NCBI GenBank assembly: GCA_001295865.1
Contig: LJHW01000022.1
Coordinates: 62,001-126,000, forward strand
Direction: 5' to 3'
Source: a beta proteobacterium AAP65
GTDB lineage: Bacteria > Pseudomonadota > Gammaproteobacteria > Burkholderiales > Burkholderiaceae_C
DNA length: 64,000 nucleotides
The notes below the pieces were generated by a model that was not told where the DNA came from, ran no database searches, and was given only the letters and a program-made list of their open reading frames with translations. The first letter of the stretch is position 1, and each line of letters opens with the position of its first letter. Below are positions 14,979 through 24,218 of the stretch, piece after piece. Both the position numbers and the translations under genes were made by a program.

Positions 14979-15728
14979 ATGCCCGCCCACCCTTTGCCCC
15001 GGGCCGCCGAAGCCGCGGCGGTGCAGCCCTCGCGTTCGCGCGCGGCCCGGCCCGAAGACCTGCTGCAGATTCCTTGGCGTGTCGCGCTGGATGCCGAAGA
15101 GCGCGCGCGTGTCGACGCCGACCTGCGTGTGGTGCAGGTCGAGCCCGGTGAGCTGATCTGCCGCATCGGCCGCCCGGTCACCTACTGGTTCGGCCTGGTC
15201 GACGGCCTGCTGAAGATGAGCAACGACAGTGGTTCGGCCGATGGCCGCGGCACGCCCATCACGTTCACCGGCGTGTCGCCCGGCGGTTGGTTCGGTGAAG
15301 GCACGGTGCTGAAGAACGAGGTCTACCGCTACAACATCCAGGCCTTGCGGCGTAGCGTGGTGGCGGGCATCTCGGCCGAGACTTTCCACTGGCTGCTCTC
15401 GCGCAGCATCGGCTTCAACCGCTTCGTGATGAACCAGCTCAACGAGCGCCTGGGCCAGTTCATCGCCGCGCGCGAGATCGACCGCCTGACCCACCCCGAC
15501 GAGCGCGTGGCGCGCAACCTCGCCGCGCTCTTCCACCCCGTGCTCTACCCCGGCGTCGGCGAAGTGCTGCGCATCACGCAGCAGGAGCTGGGTTACCTCG
15601 TGGGCCTGAGCCGGCAGCGCGTGAACGAAGCGCTGGCCGCCCTGCAGGCGGCCCAGGTCATACGCATCGAATACGGGGGGGTGCGTGTGCTGGCGCTGGA
15701 AGCCCTGCGCCGCTACCGATCGGGCTGA
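14979..15728 (+). CDS. Crp/Fnr family transcriptional regulator
   Basis: A 249-residue regulator with an N-terminal cyclic-nucleotide-binding-like domain (about 30-150: VQVEPGELICRIGRPVTYWF, FTGVSPGGWFGEG) and a C-terminal winged helix whose recognition helix is ELGYLVGLSRQRVNEALAAL (about 205-225). No FNR-type cysteine cluster is present, so it is unlikely to hold an iron-sulfur cluster. Its ligand is unknown. It is divergent from the ligase-liv cluster and probably controls it, and perhaps itself, through the inverted repeat in the shared region. Confidence 0.9.
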   Translation: MPAHPLPRAAEAAAVQPSRSRAARPEDLLQIPWRVALDAEERARVDADLRVVQVEPGELICRIGRPVTYWFGLVDGLLKMSNDSGSADGRGTPITFTGVSPGGWFGEGTVLKNEVYRYNIQALRRSVVAGISAETFHWLLSRSIGFNRFVMNQLNERLGQFIAAREIDRLTHPDERVARNLAALFHPVLYPGVGEVLRITQQELGYLVGLSRQRVNEALAALQAAQVIRIEYGGVRVLALEALRRYRSG

Positions 15729-15850: not shown

Positions 15851-15892
15851 GCAGACTCACGCGTTGTGCAGCACCGGATGGAGGGCCCCCCG

Positions 15893-17458
15893 ATGAAAGA
15901 CCTGATGCAACGCATCCTGCGACTGCTGCCGCCGCGGCTGGCGCGTTGGCTGCAGCGCCACCTGCGCGAGCAAGCCGCCGGCCGCCCCGAGGCCGGTCTG
16001 CTGCAGGGCGACACCATCGACGTGATGGCGCGGCCGGTGGCCGCCTTGCCGCTGGCGGCCACGGTGACGGTGGTGATCCCGGCGCTGAACGAGGCCAAGC
16101 GCATCGCCAGCGTTGTGGCTTACGCGCTGGCCGACCCCGCCACCGCAGAGGTGCTGGTCGTCGACGACAGCAGCATCGACGACACCGCGGCGCTGGCGCG
16201 TGCGGCGGGTGCACGCGTGATGACCAGCACCATGCTCGGCAAGGGCGCGTCCATGCATGACGGGGCCATGAACGCCAAGCACGAACTGCTGGTCTACCTG
16301 GATGGCGACCTCGCGGGCCTGCGCCCGGGCATCGTCAGCGACCTGGCGCGGCCCCTGCTGGCCGGCGAGGCCGATTTTGTCAAGGCGCGCTTCGGGCGCG
16401 GCGGCGGGCGTGTCACCGAGCTCACGGCCAAGCCCATGCTCAAGGTGTTTTTCCCCGAGCTCGCGCACCTGGGGCAGCCGCTGGGCGGCGTGATCTCGGC
16501 GCGCCGCGCGCTGCTGCAGCAGATGGTGTTCGAGGACGGGTACGGTGTCGACATCGGCCTGCTGCTGGATGCGCAGCGCGCCGGCGCGCGGGTGGCCGAA
16601 GTGGACATCGGCTCGCTCGAACACGACAGCCAGCCGCTGCTCGACCTGACGGTGATGGCCAACGAAGTCTCGCGCGTCATCTACAGCCGGGCACGCGCGG
16701 CGGGCCGCCTGCATGTCGACCAGATCGTGGCCATGTACGAAACCCAGCGCCAGGCCGCAGCGTCGCTCGACCACATCCTCACGCGGCGCCGCGGCCGCCA
16801 GCGCCTGTTGCTGCTGGACATGGATGGCACCTTGACCACCACGCGTTTCGCGGTGGAACTGGCACGCGCCAGCGGCCAGGAGCAGGCCCTGGCCGCGCTG
16901 CTGGACAGCCCCAGCGACGACGCCTCGGCGCGCAGCGAGCGCATTGCCGGGCTCTTCCGCTTCGTTCACAAACAGCAGTTCGAACGTGTGGCGCGTGCAG
17001 CACCCATCCGGCCGGGGGTGATCGAGTTCGTCAACCGCATGCGCCGCGCCGGCTTCATGGTGGGTGTGGTGAGCGACAGCTACTTCATCGCGGCCGACAT
17101 CCTGCGCCGCCGCGTCTTCGCCGATTTCGCCCTTGCACACACCATGCAGTTCGACGGCGACGTGTGCAATGGCCAGGTGAAGATCAACCCGGCCTTCCTG
17201 CCCCTGCAGCCCGGGGTGGGGCCTGCGGTGTGCAAGAGCCATGTGCTGCGGCGTTTCCGGGCTGAAGCCGGCACGCTGCCGCTGCTGGAGTGCTGGGCCG
17301 TGGGCGACAACCTCAACGACCTGGAACTCATGCGCCTGGCCGACCAGGCTTACGCGATCGAGCCCAAGGCCGCGGCCTTGCGCCGCGAACCCGGCGTGAC
17401 CGTGATCGAGAACTTCGACGAACTGCTGGCCCGCGTGCCCGCGGCGCAGGCCGCGTGA
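15893..17458 (+). CDS. Glucosyl-3-phosphoglycerate synthase-like glycosyltransferase fused to a SerB-like HAD phosphatase
   Basis: A 521-residue two-domain protein. Residues about 55-260 form a GpgS-type glycosyltransferase: VVIPALNE, VLVVDDSS, the DGD metal motif (about 137-139), GGGRVTEL (170-177), the PLGG turn and GYGVDIGLL (216-224), the last three being GpgS/MpgS marks. Residues 302-510 form a HAD phosphatase of the phosphoserine phosphatase type: DMDGT with Asp309 and Asp311, SDS (394-396), a CKSH lysine and GDNLND (471-476). The simplest reading is that one polypeptide makes a glycosyl-3-phosphoglycerate and dephosphorylates it to glycosylglycerate, a compatible solute. The ATG at 15893 has GGAGGG 7 bases upstream. 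A symporter and an oxidoreductase follow. Activity and sugar donor are inferred. Confidence 0.82.
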   Translation: MKDLMQRILRLLPPRLARWLQRHLREQAAGRPEAGLLQGDTIDVMARPVAALPLAATVTVVIPALNEAKRIASVVAYALADPATAEVLVVDDSSIDDTAALARAAGARVMTSTMLGKGASMHDGAMNAKHELLVYLDGDLAGLRPGIVSDLARPLLAGEADFVKARFGRGGGRVTELTAKPMLKVFFPELAHLGQPLGGVISARRALLQQMVFEDGYGVDIGLLLDAQRAGARVAEVDIGSLEHDSQPLLDLTVMANEVSRVIYSRARAAGRLHVDQIVAMYETQRQAAASLDHILTRRRGRQRLLLLDMDGTLTTTRFAVELARASGQEQALAALLDSPSDDASARSERIAGLFRFVHKQQFERVARAAPIRPGVIEFVNRMRRAGFMVGVVSDSYFIAADILRRRVFADFALAHTMQFDGDVCNGQVKINPAFLPLQPGVGPAVCKSHVLRRFRAEAGTLPLLECWAVGDNLNDLELMRLADQAYAIEPKAAALRREPGVTVIENFDELLARVPAAQAA

Positions 17459-17468
17459 GCCCGGCACG

Positions 17469-19061
17469 ATGACGGCGGCCGACTGGGCCGTCATCGGCCT
17501 GTACCTGGCTGCGACGCTGGGCCTGAGCGCCTGGCTGGCGCGCCGCCAGCACGGGGCCGATGACTACTACGTGGGCGGCCGCGACCTGCCCTGGTGGGCG
17601 CTGGCGCTGTCCATCCTGGCCACGCAGACCTCGGCCAACTCCTTCCTCGGCATCCCGGCCTACGTGGCGCTGGTGCCCGGTGGTGGGCTGAACTGGTTGC
17701 AGTACGAACTGGTGCTGCCGCTGGCCATGCTGGTGGTGATGCTGGTGTTCGTGCCGGTGCTGCGCGGCCTGCAACTCGTGAGCGTCTACGAATACCTCGA
17801 GCGCCGCTTCGACCGGCCCACGCGGCTGGTGCTGAGCGCCGTGTTCCTGCTCTCGCGCGGTCTGGCCGCGGGCGTGGCGCTGTACGCCGCGGCCTTGGTG
17901 GTGCAGGTGTGCACCGGACTGCCGCTGTGGGCCTGCGTGCTGGGCATGGGCGTGATGACGGTGGTCTACGACACCCTGGGCGGCATGCGCGCGGTGGTGT
18001 GGACCGACGTGCTGCAGATGGGCGTGCTGGTGCTGGGCATCGGCATCTGCGGCGTCTACGCCTGGCAACTGGCCGGCGGCGGCGCGGCCCTGCTCGCGAG
18101 CCTGGCGCCCGAGCGCCTGGCCGCGGTGGAACTCGCCCACGGCCTGGGCGATGGCGCGCGCGCGCCGGTGTGGGGTTTTGTCATCGGCGGGCTGGTGCTC
18201 TACGTCGCCTACTACGGCGTCGACCAGGGGCAGGCCCAGCGCAGCCTGGCCGCGCAAGACGTGCCGGCGGCGCAGCGTGCACTGCTGCTCAACGGGCTGG
18301 CGCGTTTTCCGCTCACGCTGCTGTACTGCGGCCTGGGGCTGGCGCTGGGGGCCGTGTATGCCGGCAACGAGGCGCTGCGCGCCGCCGTGCCCGCCGACCG
18401 GCTCGACACGCTGGTGCCGCGCTTCATCGAGCTCTACCTGCCGGCCGGCGTGCGTGGCCTGCTGGTCGCGGCCATCCTCGCCGCGGCCATGAGCAGCCTC
18501 GACTCCTTGCTCAACAGCCTCTCGGCGGCGACGCTGCGCGACTTTGTCGAGCCGCGCCTGTCGCCGCAATCCACCCCGGCACGCCGCCTGCTGGTGGCGC
18601 GGGGGGTCACGGTGGTGTGGGGCTTGTTGATCGTCGTCGCCGCACTGGCGGTGGGCGGCATCGCCACCAGCGTGGTGGAAGGCATCAACCGCATCGGTGC
18701 GCTCTTCTACGGGCCGCTGCTGGCGGCTTTCGGCTGCGGCATCCTCGATCGCCGCGCCCGCGGCCCGGCGGTGCTGGCCGGTGTGGCGGCGGGCCTGCTG
18801 CTCAACCTGGTGCTGAGCTACGGCCTGGGGCCGAAGCTGTTCTGGATGTGGTGGAACCTGAGCGGGCTGCTGGCCGCGGTGGCGGTCACCTGGGGCGTGA
18901 GCCGCCTGTTGCCGCCGCCAGCACCGGCGGCCCTGCAGGGCACCACGCTGAGCGCCACCGCGCTGCGCGAGGCCTGGGCGGCCCGGCCCGGCACCTGGTG
19001 GGGGCTGATCGCGGCCAGCGTGGGCATGACGACCTTGGCTCTGGCCCTCGGCGTGCGCTGA
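17469..19061 (+). CDS. Sodium/solute symporter (SSS family)
   Basis: A 530-residue inner-membrane protein with about 13 hydrophobic segments. It begins with the family pattern GLSAWLARRQHGADDYYVGGRDLPWWALALS, has TQTSANSFLG early, GGMRAVVWTDVLQMGVL in the middle, and AAILAAAMSSLDSLLNS, the sodium-site region near TM8. Family members import sugars, proline, organic acids or inositol with sodium. It starts 10 bases after the glycosyltransferase-phosphatase gene, so it probably takes up the same solute or its precursor; substrate cannot be read from sequence. Confidence 0.9.
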   Translation: MTAADWAVIGLYLAATLGLSAWLARRQHGADDYYVGGRDLPWWALALSILATQTSANSFLGIPAYVALVPGGGLNWLQYELVLPLAMLVVMLVFVPVLRGLQLVSVYEYLERRFDRPTRLVLSAVFLLSRGLAAGVALYAAALVVQVCTGLPLWACVLGMGVMTVVYDTLGGMRAVVWTDVLQMGVLVLGIGICGVYAWQLAGGGAALLASLAPERLAAVELAHGLGDGARAPVWGFVIGGLVLYVAYYGVDQGQAQRSLAAQDVPAAQRALLLNGLARFPLTLLYCGLGLALGAVYAGNEALRAAVPADRLDTLVPRFIELYLPAGVRGLLVAAILAAAMSSLDSLLNSLSAATLRDFVEPRLSPQSTPARRLLVARGVTVVWGLLIVVAALAVGGIATSVVEGINRIGALFYGPLLAAFGCGILDRRARGPAVLAGVAAGLLLNLVLSYGLGPKLFWMWWNLSGLLAAVAVTWGVSRLLPPPAPAALQGTTLSATALREAWAARPGTWWGLIAASVGMTTLALALGVR

Positions 19062-19125
19062 ACACGCGCCTGTAAGCACCACAGCCCCTGCAGCACCACC
19101 GAACCACACCGAGGAGCTTCGCCCC

Positions 19126-20526
19126 ATGTCGCTGCGCCAGTTCATCTCCACCCGCGGCCTGCTGAAGACGCTCAGCGCGCTGAAGAACAGCATCGTCTAC
19201 ACCTGGGACGAAGCGGCCCGCATCCTCGGGCTGGACGAAGACCTCTACAGCCATCCGCTGCACCGCGAACTCGAACGCCCGGTGCGTGTGATCCTCATCG
19301 GCGCCGGCCACCGCGGCGGCATCTATGCCGACTACGCGACCAAGAGCCCGCGCGAGATGCGGGTGGTCGGCGTGGCCGAGCCCAACGCGGCGCGGCGCAA
19401 GCGCATCGCCGCGGCGCACGGCATCCCACCCGAGCGTTGCTTCACCGACTGGAAGGCGGTTTTTGAAGCCGCTCCGGGCCAAGACGGCGTGGCCGGCGCC
19501 TGGGCCGATGCGGTGATCATCGCCACGCCCGACCGCCTGCACACCGCGCCTTGCCTGCGTGCGCTGGCGCAGGGCTACGACGTGCTGCTGGAAAAACCGG
19601 TGGCGCCCACCGAGGCCGAGTGCCGGCAGATCCTGGCCGCGGCGCAGGCCAGCGGGCGCATCGTGGGGGTCTGCCACGTGCTGCGCTACACGCCCTACTT
19701 CCGCGAATTGAAGGCGTTGATCGACGGTGGCATGGTGGGCGAGGTGGTCAGCGTGCAGCACCTGGAGCCCATCGAACACGTGCACATGAGCCACAGCTAT
19801 GTGCGCGGCAACTGGCGCAAGAGCGAAGACGCCACGCCCATCATCCTGGCCAAGAGCTGCCACGACACCGACATCATCCGTTGGCTGGTGGGTGCGCCGG
19901 CCGAGGAGGTGCATTGCTTCGGCAACCTGAAGTGGTTCAAGGAAGCCAACGCCCCGGCCGGCAGCACCGCACGCTGCACCGACGGCTGCCAGGTGGAACG
20001 CGAGTGCCCTTACTCGGCGCTGCAGATCTACTACCGCGACCGCAAGCGCCTGTATGTCTTCGACCTGCCCGAAGACCAGGGCCTGTGGGGCCCGTTGATC
20101 ATGCAGGGGCTGAACACCACCGATTACGGGCGTTGTGTCTACCGCATGGACAACGACCAGCCCGACCACCTCACGGCCAACATCCTCTTCGCCAACGGCG
20201 TGACCGCCGGCTTCAGCATGGAGGCCTTCGTCAGCTACGAGGGGCGGCGCACGCGCATCATGGGCAGCATGGGCGACATCGTCGGCAACATGGAGAGCTT
20301 CACGCTCACCAGCTTCAAGGACGGCAAGCGCCGCAGCTGGAGCATGAAGACCGACGCCCACGGCGGCGGTGACCACCGACTGGTGAAGGACTGGGTGCAG
20401 GCCGTGGGCCAGAAGAACCCGGCGCTGCTGAGCTCGCCCATCGAAGTGAGCGTGGAAAGCCACCTCATCGCCTACGCCGCCGAAACCAGCCGCGTCAACC
20501 GCAGCATCGAACGCGTGCAGTTGTAG
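19126..20526 (+). CDS. Gfo/Idh/MocA family oxidoreductase with cysteine-rich insert
   Basis: A 466-residue NAD(P)-dependent dehydrogenase. A 45-residue N-terminal extension precedes the Rossmann fold (RVILIGAGHRGGIYA, about 54-67). The conserved EKP motif is present (VLLEKPVAPTEAEC, about 155). Near residue 285 there is an unusual cysteine cluster, ARCTDGCQVERECPYSALQ, common to one branch of the family and possibly a metal site. Family members oxidise or reduce sugars, inositols and related polyols. It has a strong ribosome site (GAGGAG) and follows the symporter by 64 bases, so I place it in the same operon. Its substrate may be the imported or synthesised glycoside. Confidence 0.88.
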   Translation: MSLRQFISTRGLLKTLSALKNSIVYTWDEAARILGLDEDLYSHPLHRELERPVRVILIGAGHRGGIYADYATKSPREMRVVGVAEPNAARRKRIAAAHGIPPERCFTDWKAVFEAAPGQDGVAGAWADAVIIATPDRLHTAPCLRALAQGYDVLLEKPVAPTEAECRQILAAAQASGRIVGVCHVLRYTPYFRELKALIDGGMVGEVVSVQHLEPIEHVHMSHSYVRGNWRKSEDATPIILAKSCHDTDIIRWLVGAPAEEVHCFGNLKWFKEANAPAGSTARCTDGCQVERECPYSALQIYYRDRKRLYVFDLPEDQGLWGPLIMQGLNTTDYGRCVYRMDNDQPDHLTANILFANGVTAGFSMEAFVSYEGRRTRIMGSMGDIVGNMESFTLTSFKDGKRRSWSMKTDAHGGGDHRLVKDWVQAVGQKNPALLSSPIEVSVESHLIAYAAETSRVNRSIERVQL

Positions 20527-20620: not shown

Positions 20621-23140
20621 TCAGCGGGCGATGGCGCGGCTGCTCTTGGCGCGTGAGGCCGGGCCCTTGGCACGCGCCGCGGCGAAATCGATCACCACCA
20701 GGATGGGATCGTGGTCCGACGAACGGTACGGGTCCAGGCGGTTGGCCGGGTCGGGCGCGCAGGTGGCGCAGGCCGGCTGCTTGAACTCGAGGTTGTAGTC
20801 GTAGGCCACGCTTTCGTCGGCGTTGATGTTCCACAGCCGCGTGTTCACCACCTTGCTGGAAAAACCGGCGTTGGTGATGGCGTGGTCCAGGCGGCCGGCC
20901 TTGCCGTCGAAGACATAGGTGTAGGCCAGCGGGTTGAAACGCAGGGCCTGGTCGACAAAGCCGTTGCCCGTGAGTTCGAAGATCGGGTCTTCCTGGCCGT
21001 AGGCGTTGAAGTCGCCCATCAGCAGCACGTCGGCCACGCCGCTGTTCTGCTGCACCTGCGCCACGAAGGTGCGCAGACGTTGGGCCTGCGCCAGGCGGGT
21101 GGCGTTCCAGCAGGCCTGGCCGTCGCCCTGGTTCGCGTCGGGGCCGGTGCCGCTGGGGCAGCCGCCCTTGCTCTTCAGGTGGTTCACGAAGTAGGTGAAA
21201 CGGTCACCGGCCGGGGTCTGGAAGGTCTGGGCCAGCGTCGGGCGGTTGTTCACCGCGTTGGTGTCGCTCAGCGGCGCGCCCACGGGCGTCACCTTGGCGG
21301 GCTTGTAGATCATCGCCACGCGGATGGCGTCGGTGCCCGTGCCGGCCGTGGGCAGCGCGATCACGGCCCAGGGGCCCGAACGCACCTGCGCGTTCAGCGC
21401 ATCCACCAGGTTCTGTGCGGCCACGTTGCCGTTGTTCTGGATCTCCATCAGGCCCACCACGTCGGCGTCCAGGCCGGCGATGGCGCGCACGATCTTGTCG
21501 CGCTGGCGCTGGAACTCGGCCAGGTTGTTGGCGCCGCGGCAGTTGCCTGCGGTGGTGGACGAACCCACGGTGCAGCCCTGGCCGGTCTGGCCGTCGGCGG
21601 TCTGGCCGTTGGTGAAGGTGGTGAAGTAGTTCAGCACGTTCATGCCGGCCACCGTGAGCTTGCCGCTGTCCAGCCCGGCCAGCGCACGCGGGCGCGGGTT
21701 GGTGGGGGTGATGACGATCGGGCTCAGCGGGTGCAGGCGGTACAGGCCCGGGCCCGCGCTGCTGGTGCCCGAAAGGCCGAAGTCGAGCGTGCCGACGAGG
21801 CTGCCGATCGTGTCGCCGGCGCGCGGCAGGCCATTGCCGCTGAAGTAGGGCGTGGGGTTCACGTTCTGCGCCGAGCTGCCGTCGTCCAGGATGATGCGGC
21901 TGCGCGCCTGCAGCGACTCGAGCTCCAGGGCTTGCGGCGTGCCCGGGCGGTAGCGGTTGGTCGGCACCTCATGGCGGCCGCCAGCGCCCAGCAGCAGCTG
22001 GCCGAAGCGGGCCTGCAGCTCGTTGGCCTGCACGGTGAGCGCGTTTTCGATGCGCACCAGCATGCCCTCGAAGCGTTCGAGGCTGTCACCCACGGCCACC
22101 GGCAGCGTCACCGACACCGGCGCCAGGCTGTAACCCGTGCCGAGCAGCACCACGGCGCTCGGGTTGGCGATCTGCGTCAGCGGCGTGGCGGCGGTGCCAC
22201 TGCCGCTGGCGAATTCGCTGACGGTGCCTGTCACCTGCACCAGGTTGCCCACCGACGCCGCCGGGATGACCGTGGTGCCGGTGAAGACGAAGAGGCCATC
22301 GGAGGTGGCGGGGTCGCCGTCGCCCTGCAGGTCTTGGATGAAGAAGCCGTTGCTGTTGACCCGTGTGACCACGCCGCTGGTGACCACGCTCTGACCGGCC
22401 AGCGTGCTGGTGGCCCCGGTGCCCTGGATGGTGTAGATCGCCGCCGCGGTGGGCGTGCCGCCCCCGCCGCCGCCACCCCCACCACCGCCGCCGCCGCCAT
22501 TGGCGCAGACCGCCACCGGGGCGCTGCTGTTGCGCGGGGTGGGCGTGCCCACGGTGAAGTCGGTCAGGTTGTTGCCGGTGTCGTCGCAGCCGCCGCTGTT
22601 GCGCAGCGCCGCCGTGGTGGCGCTGAGCGCCGGCGTGGGCGTGCCTTCGGTGTTGCTGGCGGCACCGTAGCTCACGATGTCGACCAGCGTGCCGCCCACG
22701 GGCGCCACGCCGGTCAGCGGCGTGGCCGTGCTGGCCAGGGCCACCTTGCCGTTGCTGCCGCCCATGGCAATGGTGCCGGTGATGTCGCCCACGACCTCCA
22801 CCGTGCCGCCGGAGCCGGCCGCCTGGCGGATCAGCAGGTAGCCGCCTGCCGGGATGCTGGTGCCTGCGGGAATGCTGGTGACCTGCCAGCTGCTGCCCGT
22901 GCCCGAGGCGTACTGCACCGACCAGCCGCCCACGCTTTCAGCCACCGTGCTGCGGTTCTTCAGCTCGATGAAGTCGTGGCGCAGCGTGGCGCCACTGTTG
23001 CCGCCGCCGCCATAAACCTGGCTGATGACCACTTGCGCAGCGGCAGGCGACATGAAGGCGGCGATGGCCAGCGGCAGGGCCGCGGCGCGGAAGACGCGCC
23101 AGGCGCGGCCAGGGCAGGCAAGCAGGGTGTTCAGGCTCAT
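20621..23140 (-). CDS. Secreted endonuclease/exonuclease of the ExeM/NucH type
   Basis: An 839-residue extracellular DNase-like protein. It has a signal peptide ending PAAAQ-VVIS, an N-terminal lamin-tail domain (about 36-190, VISQVYGGGGNSGA), a run of 14 glycines (215-228), an OB-like domain (about 235-350) and a C-terminal endonuclease/exonuclease/phosphatase domain with GMNVLNYF, LMEIQNNG, YFVNHLKSKGG, LLMGDFNAYGQEDP, RLDHAITNAG and SSDHDPILVV. The catalytic set is intact. Related enzymes degrade extracellular DNA in biofilms or for phosphorus. I chose the ATG at 23140 for its signal peptide. It lies downstream of a PEP-CTERM gene, separated by a terminator, so some coupling by read-through is possible. 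Confidence 0.9.
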   Translation of the reverse strand: MSLNTLLACPGRAWRVFRAAALPLAIAAFMSPAAAQVVISQVYGGGGNSGATLRHDFIELKNRSTVAESVGGWSVQYASGTGSSWQVTSIPAGTSIPAGGYLLIRQAAGSGGTVEVVGDITGTIAMGGSNGKVALASTATPLTGVAPVGGTLVDIVSYGAASNTEGTPTPALSATTAALRNSGGCDDTGNNLTDFTVGTPTPRNSSAPVAVCANGGGGGGGGGGGGGGTPTAAAIYTIQGTGATSTLAGQSVVTSGVVTRVNSNGFFIQDLQGDGDPATSDGLFVFTGTTVIPAASVGNLVQVTGTVSEFASGSGTAATPLTQIANPSAVVLLGTGYSLAPVSVTLPVAVGDSLERFEGMLVRIENALTVQANELQARFGQLLLGAGGRHEVPTNRYRPGTPQALELESLQARSRIILDDGSSAQNVNPTPYFSGNGLPRAGDTIGSLVGTLDFGLSGTSSAGPGLYRLHPLSPIVITPTNPRPRALAGLDSGKLTVAGMNVLNYFTTFTNGQTADGQTGQGCTVGSSTTAGNCRGANNLAEFQRQRDKIVRAIAGLDADVVGLMEIQNNGNVAAQNLVDALNAQVRSGPWAVIALPTAGTGTDAIRVAMIYKPAKVTPVGAPLSDTNAVNNRPTLAQTFQTPAGDRFTYFVNHLKSKGGCPSGTGPDANQGDGQACWNATRLAQAQRLRTFVAQVQQNSGVADVLLMGDFNAYGQEDPIFELTGNGFVDQALRFNPLAYTYVFDGKAGRLDHAITNAGFSSKVVNTRLWNINADESVAYDYNLEFKQPACATCAPDPANRLDPYRSSDHDPILVVIDFAAARAKGPASRAKSSRAIAR
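22457..22498 (-). repeat. Polyglycine tract inside the nuclease gene
   Basis: Fourteen consecutive glycine codons (residues 215-228), mostly GGC with some GGT and GGG. The tract links the lamin-tail domain to the catalytic half. The near-triplet repeat is prone to slippage, so length may vary between strains. Confidence 0.9.
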
Positions 23141-23190
23141 GGGCAGTGTCGGTTCGTTGAGCGGTGCGCCGTGCGGGCACGGCAGCCGCA

Positions 23191-23233
23191 GAAAAAGCAA
23201 AGGCCCGGCGGCCGCGCTGGCAGCCGCCGGGCC
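23191..23233 (-). terminator. Intrinsic terminator after the PEP-CTERM gene
   Basis: GGCCCGGCGGC (23202-23212) pairs perfectly with GCCGCCGGGCC (23223-23233), an 11-bp stem with a 10-base loop. On the minus strand TTTGCTTTTTC follows. It lies 9 bases after the stop of the PEP-CTERM gene and before the nuclease start at 23140. Confidence 0.8.
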
Positions 23234-23241
23234 GGCACGGG

Positions 23242-24042
23242 TCAGCCGCGGCGGCGGCGCGCCACGAAGCCCAGGCTGGCCACGCCGGCCAGCCACATCG
23301 CCAGCGTGCCGGGTTCGGGCACCGGGGTCACGGCGAAGCTGAAGTTGTCGATGGCCAGGCCGTGGTCGTTGCCGACATCGTTCAGGTCGGCCCAGCGGAA
23401 CCACAGCGTCTCGCCCGGCGCCCAGTTCATGTTGATGAAGCTGGCGCCCAGGCCGCCCACCAGACCGGCGCTGTTGCCGTCCACGGCGGCCGCGGTGGCC
23501 CCGGTGACGGGCGAGGTGACGTTGGTGATGTCGATGCCCGGGATGTAGGCGGCGGTGCCGAAGCTGCTGCCGAAGCCGAACTCGAAACTCAGCGTCTGCG
23601 CATTGGTGTTGCCGCCGTTGCGCCACTGCTCGCCCTGCATGGCGAAGCTGAAGCGGTCGATCTCGGCGCCAGTGTCGTTGGTGAAGGCCACGGCAATCCA
23701 GCCCGCCACGGCGCCCGAGGCCGGCGAACCGAAGTAGCTGCCGCCCGAGGCCGTGACGCCCAGCGCGCGGTCGCTGCTGCCGGCGGCGCCGAAGCTGTAG
23801 AAGCTGCCGGCGTTGCTGCTGCCCGTGCCGCCCAGCAGCGTGGGGGCCGCATTGCCGTTGCCGACAAACAGGCTCCAGCCCGGCAACGTGCTGTTGTTGG
23901 CCCAGGGCTGTGCGGTGGTGGCGGTGGTCAGCGTGTCGAAATTCTGCGTGTAGGCGAATGCAGGGTCGTTGACGCTGATCTGCGCTTGCGCGGCGGGCAG
24001 CAGCGCCAGCAGGGCAGCCGCGGCAAACAGGTTCTTCTTCAT
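23242..24042 (-). CDS. PEP-CTERM sorting domain protein, surface or exopolysaccharide associated
   Basis: A 266-residue secreted protein with signal peptide MKKNLFAAAALLALLPAAQA and a Gly/Ser/Ala-rich, Cys-free body with NFDTLTT and NMNWAPGETLWFRWAD, which looks like a beta-sandwich. The C-terminus is a full PEP-CTERM signal: VPEPGT, a hydrophobic helix and RRRRG. Such proteins are recognised by the exosortase EpsH/XrtA system and placed at the surface with exopolysaccharide. No exosortase gene is in this window. The gene is divergent from a Ser/Thr kinase gene and has hairpins in its leader region. Confidence 0.9.
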   Translation of the reverse strand: MKKNLFAAAALLALLPAAQAQISVNDPAFAYTQNFDTLTTATTAQPWANNSTLPGWSLFVGNGNAAPTLLGGTGSSNAGSFYSFGAAGSSDRALGVTASGGSYFGSPASGAVAGWIAVAFTNDTGAEIDRFSFAMQGEQWRNGGNTNAQTLSFEFGFGSSFGTAAYIPGIDITNVTSPVTGATAAAVDGNSAGLVGGLGASFINMNWAPGETLWFRWADLNDVGNDHGLAIDNFSFAVTPVPEPGTLAMWLAGVASLGFVARRRRG

Positions 24043-24072
24043 GACAAGCGGTCCTTGGATGACAAACGAATC

Positions 24073-24091
24073 GGCGCCTGTTGCAGGCGCC
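24073..24091. repeat. Perfect hairpin in the leader of the PEP-CTERM gene
   Basis: GGCGCCTG-TTG-CAGGCGCC is a perfect 8-bp stem with a 3-base loop, 30 bases upstream of the PEP-CTERM start codon at 24042. No T run follows in either direction. It may be a leader structure that affects mRNA stability or translation, or a regulator site. Confidence 0.55.
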
Positions 24092-24154
24092 GTGGGTACG
24101 GGTGACACATTAGGGGGAAAGCATGAAGCGCGCATGACGCCGGGCTGCGAGGAC

Positions 24155-24181
24155 GGGGGGCTCCCCCACGAATGGGGGGCT
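24155..24181. promoter_or_regulatory. C/G-run hairpin and direct repeat between PEP-CTERM and kinase genes
   Basis: GGGGGGCT occurs twice (24155-24162 and 24174-24181). Between the copies, CCCCC (24163-24167) can pair with GGGGG (24174-24178) around an ACGAAT loop. Read on the minus strand it is CCCCCCATTCGTGGGGG, about 120 bases before the PEP-CTERM start. A similar CCCCCCA...GGGGG hairpin stands 107 bases before the PEP-CTERM gene at 42496. The shared layout suggests a common control element. Confidence 0.45.
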
Positions 24182-24218
24182 GAAGAATCCACGACCTGCC
24201 GCGCCCTAAACTGCACCC

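Follow-up and report, generated by a model that had tools for sequence, protein, structure and literature searches.

Glucosylglycerate synthesis in Persephonella, Synechococcus and mycobacteria relies on a synthase, GpgS, and a phosphatase, GpgP, encoded by separate genes. The phosphatases of these pathways are of the HAD-IIB or histidine-phosphatase types. In MgsD of Dehalococcoides, a transferase of another glycosyltransferase family is joined to a HAD-IIB phosphatase. MgsD unites mannosylglycerate synthase and phosphatase in one protein (PMC6240254). GgpPS of Marinobacter, Stenotrophomonas and Azotobacter is also a fused synthase/phosphatase for a glucoside compatible solute (PMC10873239); its phosphatase is N-terminal and its product is glucosylglycerol.

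The window, a stretch of 64,000 nucleotides from the beta proteobacterium AAP65, includes a gene (15893..17458, + strand) that codes for a GT81-type glycosyltransferase fused to a HAD class-IB phosphatase, as determined by Pfam, NCBIfam, alignment and modeling. The protein resembles the GpgS and GpgP system in its GT81-type synthase fold, its acceptor motif and its predicted product, glucosylglycerate, but the phosphatase is a fused HAD-IB domain instead of the product of a separate gene. It has in common with MgsD the fusion of a glycosylglycerate synthase to a phosphatase and with GgpPS the fused architecture predicted to make a glucoside compatible solute; unlike in GgpPS, the phosphatase is predicted to be C-terminal to the transferase. 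None of the three known systems has the GT81 and HAD-IB pair. A Pfam search of the fusion protein detected only Glycos_transf_2-type and HAD/Hydrolase families and no match to the families of MgsD or GgpPS. Since the MgsD families were not matched, the fusion is regarded as independent of MgsD. No description of a GpgS-SerB-like fusion was found in the open-access literature; subscription journals may mention one. We consider it probable that the protein is a bifunctional glycosyl-3-phosphoglycerate synthase/phosphatase making glucosylglycerate, or a close glycoside, as a solute for salt or osmotic stress. The chief uncertainty concerns the donor sugar.

The fusion gene and its glycosyltransferase half

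The open reading frame extends from 15866 to 17458 (+) and comprises 530 amino acids when counted from the upstream GTG at 15866. In this numbering the glycosyltransferase occupies residues ~60-300 and the HAD class-IB phosphatase residues ~311-525. The gene likely starts at the ATG at 15893, which is preceded by the purine-rich sequence ggatggagggcccccc and aligns with the start methionine of two relatives (L010 and L011). Both observations support the start coordinate given in the initial annotation. A promoter search upstream of the gene gave no signal above chance. The same annotation had described a glycosyltransferase and a complete HAD phosphatase as one protein, and both Pfam domains were indeed found in this one frame: Glycos_transf_2 at residues 68-224 (E 7.7e-15) and HAD at 316-490 (E 9.1e-14). 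Independent genomes carry the fusion in a single frame at 59-89% identity, which excludes an assembly artefact.

The best NCBIfam match of the glycosyltransferase half was GpgS (PRK13915, 186 bits, E 8.7e-55). The fusion protein misses the curated cut-off of this equivalog, 262 bits, and the exact donor and acceptor are therefore tentative. The best sequence matches were the solved mycobacterial GpgS (E 4e-30) and then Rubrobacter MpgS (E 2e-27). An AlphaFold2 model of the fusion protein was built from 18 relatives (mean pLDDT 80, pTM 0.70). Its residues 55-304, and within them 58-303 as the aligned stretch, were superimposed on M. hassiacum GpgS (7pe4) with Z 26.7 and 2.2 Å over 231 residues at 37% identity, and the comparison of the transferase half with MpgS (3f1y) gave Z 25.6. 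The GT-A fold predicted by the model aligns with the solved GpgS and MpgS structures along the entire domain.

The motifs GGGRVTEL, GYGVDIGLL and DGD, already recognized in the initial annotation, are present in the window protein and conserved across its relatives. DGD occupies residues 146-148, and the acceptor loop includes R182, T184 and E185. The DxD and acceptor-loop residues are intact in 38 of the 39 members, the exception being L078 (E185A); the DxD motif reads DAD in L068 and L069. In M. tuberculosis GpgS, Val186 and Thr187 hold the carboxylate of 3-phosphoglycerate (PMC2581804). These two residues fall within GGRVTEL, which is conserved in all fusion relatives but one. The metal-site histidine (His258 in M. 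tuberculosis GpgS) is also a histidine in the window protein and is an asparagine in 8 of the 29 intact relatives. The N-terminal GT-A domain would use a nucleotide sugar to glucosylate, or possibly mannosylate, 3-phosphoglycerate. That the enzymology is the same and the sugar is not glucose, making the protein a mannosyl- or other glycosyl-glycerate synthase/phosphatase, is a serious if somewhat unlikely alternative. GT81 also includes MpgS, the Rubrobacter MpgS nearly equals GpgS in both E and Z values, and the score lies under the GpgS equivalog cut-off; however, sequence and fold both favor GpgS, by a small margin.

The phosphatase half and its decay

Residues 310-525 of the model match phosphoserine phosphatases with Z 21-25 (3m1y, Z 25.3; 1l7o, Z 24.3). 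This half passes the cut-off of PF12710. Against TIGR01488 (cut-off 45 bits) the window protein falls just short with 40.8 bits, and a divergent relative, L068, reaches 47.9. HAD motifs I-IV (DxD, S/T, K and GDxxxD) and the class-IB fold are present in the window protein, and none of the 29 intact relatives lacks any residue of the set D318, D320, S403, K457, D481 and D485. The fold, cap type and catalytic residues are thus those of SerB and other HAD-IB enzymes, in agreement with the phosphoserine-phosphatase type proposed before, but identity to phosphoserine phosphatases is only ~20-24% and the NCBIfam SerB match (47.9 bits) is under its cut-off of 144. Glu20 and Arg56 of the Methanocaldococcus jannaschii phosphoserine phosphatase (PSP) are substrate-binding residues. 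In the alignment with SerB, Arg327 of the window protein takes the position of the substrate glutamate, and all 29 intact members have arginine there; the position of Arg56 corresponds to residue 359 and varies among them. Because the glutamate is replaced in every intact relative, SerB identity is unlikely, and phosphoserine phosphatase was rejected as the most likely activity of the C-terminal half. The host genome also has another, separate SerB-like match. Judging from the aligned residues, the C-terminal domain is a PSP-like phosphatase with an altered substrate site, in which Arg327 would be suited to a substrate that is acidic and has no amino group. The domain would take the phosphate off the transferase product with Asp318 as the nucleophile and Asp320 as the acid/base.

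Catalytic residues of the HAD half have been lost in 10 of the 39 members, all of which have an intact transferase half. The nucleophile is lost in L070, L071, L078, L122 and L126, and other catalytic residues are lost in L016, L020, L124 and L130. L072 has only a small part of the domain left. In L016 and L122 the catalytic set is altered at one position only. Of the 86 residues invariant in the transferase half, the decayed members retain 76-86. Nine of their ten HAD halves retain 25-34 of 35 non-catalytic invariant residues, and seven of those nine retain just 1-5 of 9 HAD catalytic residues. A tree of the transferase half requires at least eight changes between the intact and decayed states, at least three of them forced by well-supported branches. 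Since many inner branches of this tree are weak, only the statement that several losses occurred is safe. Four genomes (G006, G1071, G1073 and G1103) carry an intact and a decayed copy together. No intact copy was seen in G950, G1031, G010, G1113 and G032, some of which are incomplete.

With 10 of 39 phosphatase halves damaged, dephosphorylation in cis cannot be general. The pattern of decay speaks for a transferase that is important by itself, with dephosphorylation taking place in trans or being dispensable. A further step would be to regard the HAD half as chiefly a regulatory domain or scaffold, so that the working product is a phosphorylated glycoside that is dephosphorylated elsewhere or never. 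The losses on several branches with retention of the transferase half point in this direction, as does the survival of most non-catalytic invariant residues in all but one of the decayed members. We nonetheless think it quite unlikely: 29 of the 39 members, including that of the window, keep the whole catalytic set, and in four genomes with a decayed copy an intact one is also present and could act in trans.

A gene of the PEP mutase/ICL superfamily, enclosed between two Band-7 (SPFH) genes, adjoins decayed fusions of one genus (L070:6360-7175 and L126:9512-10300). L125 has a more distant homologue (L125:1664-2629) ~5 kb from its intact fusion.

Genomic neighborhood and distribution

A ClC chloride transporter gene is found in or near the operon at 16 fusion loci. 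At five loci, among those where clean gene calls permitted measurement of the gap, the ClC and fusion genes share a 4-bp stop/start overlap, an arrangement that suggests translational coupling. The window's own operon has no ClC gene; its genome carries a 76% homologue on another contig (C19), where this adjoins a TetR-like gene and not a MarR gene. MarR regulator genes occur near the fusion at 15 loci and Na+/H+ antiporter genes at L045, L076, L077, L080, L081 and L125; the most distant members have a universal stress protein and CorA as neighbors. Among the sequences compared, the only other proteins matched by the MarR profile were methanotroph regulators encoded beside ectA, at 30-36% identity (HMM E 1e-18 to 1e-20). 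EctR1, from the ectoine operon of a methanotroph, and CosR of Vibrio repress compatible-solute genes in response to salt (PMC7876524), and the ectA-adjoining MarR genes occupy a position that would fit this role. The likeness to EctR is weak evidence because MarR regulators form a large superfamily.

These neighbors bear on the destination of the product. Mycobacterial glucosylglycerate is a primer or building block of methylglucose lipopolysaccharide (PMC2581804, PMC4555173), and this documented function of mycobacterial GpgS raises the possibility that the glycosylglycerate made here enters a glycan or lipid, as primer or as building block, and is not a free solute. The genes that recur among the neighbors examined are, however, ion transporters and regulators; additional glycosyltransferases, O-antigen genes and lipid genes do not recur there. 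The initial annotation had named membership of lipid or polysaccharide pathways as an outcome that would speak against its proposal. A primer function is distinctly improbable. The osmoprotection reading, also advanced at the outset, gains support from the fold, the residues and the ion-transport neighborhood: glucosylglycerate or a close relative would be an anionic compatible solute under ion or water imbalance.

A CRP/FNR-type regulator gene (14979..15728, +; Pfam) is located upstream of the fusion, between it and a divergent acyl-CoA synthetase gene, and may serve the acyl-CoA synthetase operon instead of the fusion. It is retained beside the fusion in L040, L041, L047, L049 and L132; in L041 a ClC gene lies between the two. 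On the other side of the cassette, the window includes a gene for a large secreted-type exonuclease/endonuclease with a lamin-tail domain (20621-24216, -) and, upstream of this gene, one for a PEP-CTERM protein. L040, L046 and L049 have likewise kept the lamin-tail nuclease next to the cassette.

As described in the initial annotation, a sodium symporter and a Gfo/Idh/MocA oxidoreductase follow in the same direction. The sodium:solute symporter (SSS; 17469..19061, +; 530 amino acids) starts 10 bp after the fusion gene and scores over the cut-offs of PF00474 (140 bits, E 1.3e-40) and TIGR00813 (216.8 bits). Its nearest solved relatives, NIS (iodide), SiaT (sialic acid) and SMCT1 (monocarboxylate), transport anionic solutes. 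The oxidoreductase (19126..20526, +; 466 amino acids) matches PF01408 (E 2.1e-18) and includes the C-terminal domain. Its cysteine-containing insert (RCTDGC..ECPYSA) is common to distant relatives elsewhere, which do not have its N-terminal extension of ~45 amino acids. These relatives belong to ordinary sugar-catabolic operons; those at 40-45% identity come from Deinococcus, Paenibacillus and Streptomyces, where they are part of sugar operons, and from Thermus, where a peptide/nickel-type ABC transporter and a glycosidase of family 4 are adjacent.

Both genes follow the fusion in the window's lineage and also in several others (L040-L043, L046, L047, L049, L073, L123 and L132). In L039 the symporter alone is missing, and in Methylomonas and many other relatives the two genes are not beside the fusion. 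Eight genomes of the window's genus have the oxidoreductase; seven of them have the fusion, and the eighth oxidoreductase is on a 4.2-kb contig, too short to include it. The association is therefore tight but local, and the symporter and oxidoreductase are best read as clade-specific additions. Uptake and turnover of the solute would fit the two proteins: in the window's clade, the symporter would retrieve it and the oxidoreductase would break it down or remodel it. The earlier proposal that the system imports and remodels its product thus amounts to no more than an association specific to this clade: beyond the window's lineage, one or both genes are missing in most relatives.

The fusion is rare, and its commoner neighbors are the ClC, MarR and Na+/H+ antiporter genes. 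Of 81 genomes in the window's genus, 17 have a full-length relative; the corresponding counts are 7 of 21 for a second genus and 9 of 251 for the family, two of the nine being in the window's genus. No fusion was found beyond the window's own genome in samples of the class (274 genomes) and phylum (398 genomes), and in the sample of the family of the Methylomonas genome (101 genomes) it was present only in the query genome at its center. On these three samples, a widespread family was rejected. The close relatives with names are Rubrivivax-type bacteria, and counterparts in Methylomonas and in a Silanimonas assembly share 70% and 71% identity, respectively, with the fusion gene. The patchy distribution suggests horizontal transfer. 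A search of viral contigs detected no fusion relative, and two large actinobacterial replicons had separate GpgS-like matches at ~40% identity. Mobile or viral carriage of the fusion was rejected on these grounds.

Implications for compatible-solute synthesis

The protein would be a third, apparently independent, synthase-phosphatase fusion in the synthesis of glycoside compatible solutes. We have found no description of its phosphatase type, HAD-IB, in this role. The fusion suggests that Burkholderiales of the Rubrivivax type and Methylomonas use glycosylglycerates as stress solutes. A bolder reading, which we hold to be unlikely, is that of a switchable osmolyte synthase in which the phosphatase half has repeatedly become a dead sensor or scaffold; a decayed paralogue would make or control a phosphorylated glycoside beside an intact copy and, co-translated with ClC, would couple chloride balance and solute synthesis. 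Testable questions about how bacteria tie chloride balance to the synthesis of solutes arise from the link to ClC and from the recurring loss of the active site in the phosphatase half.
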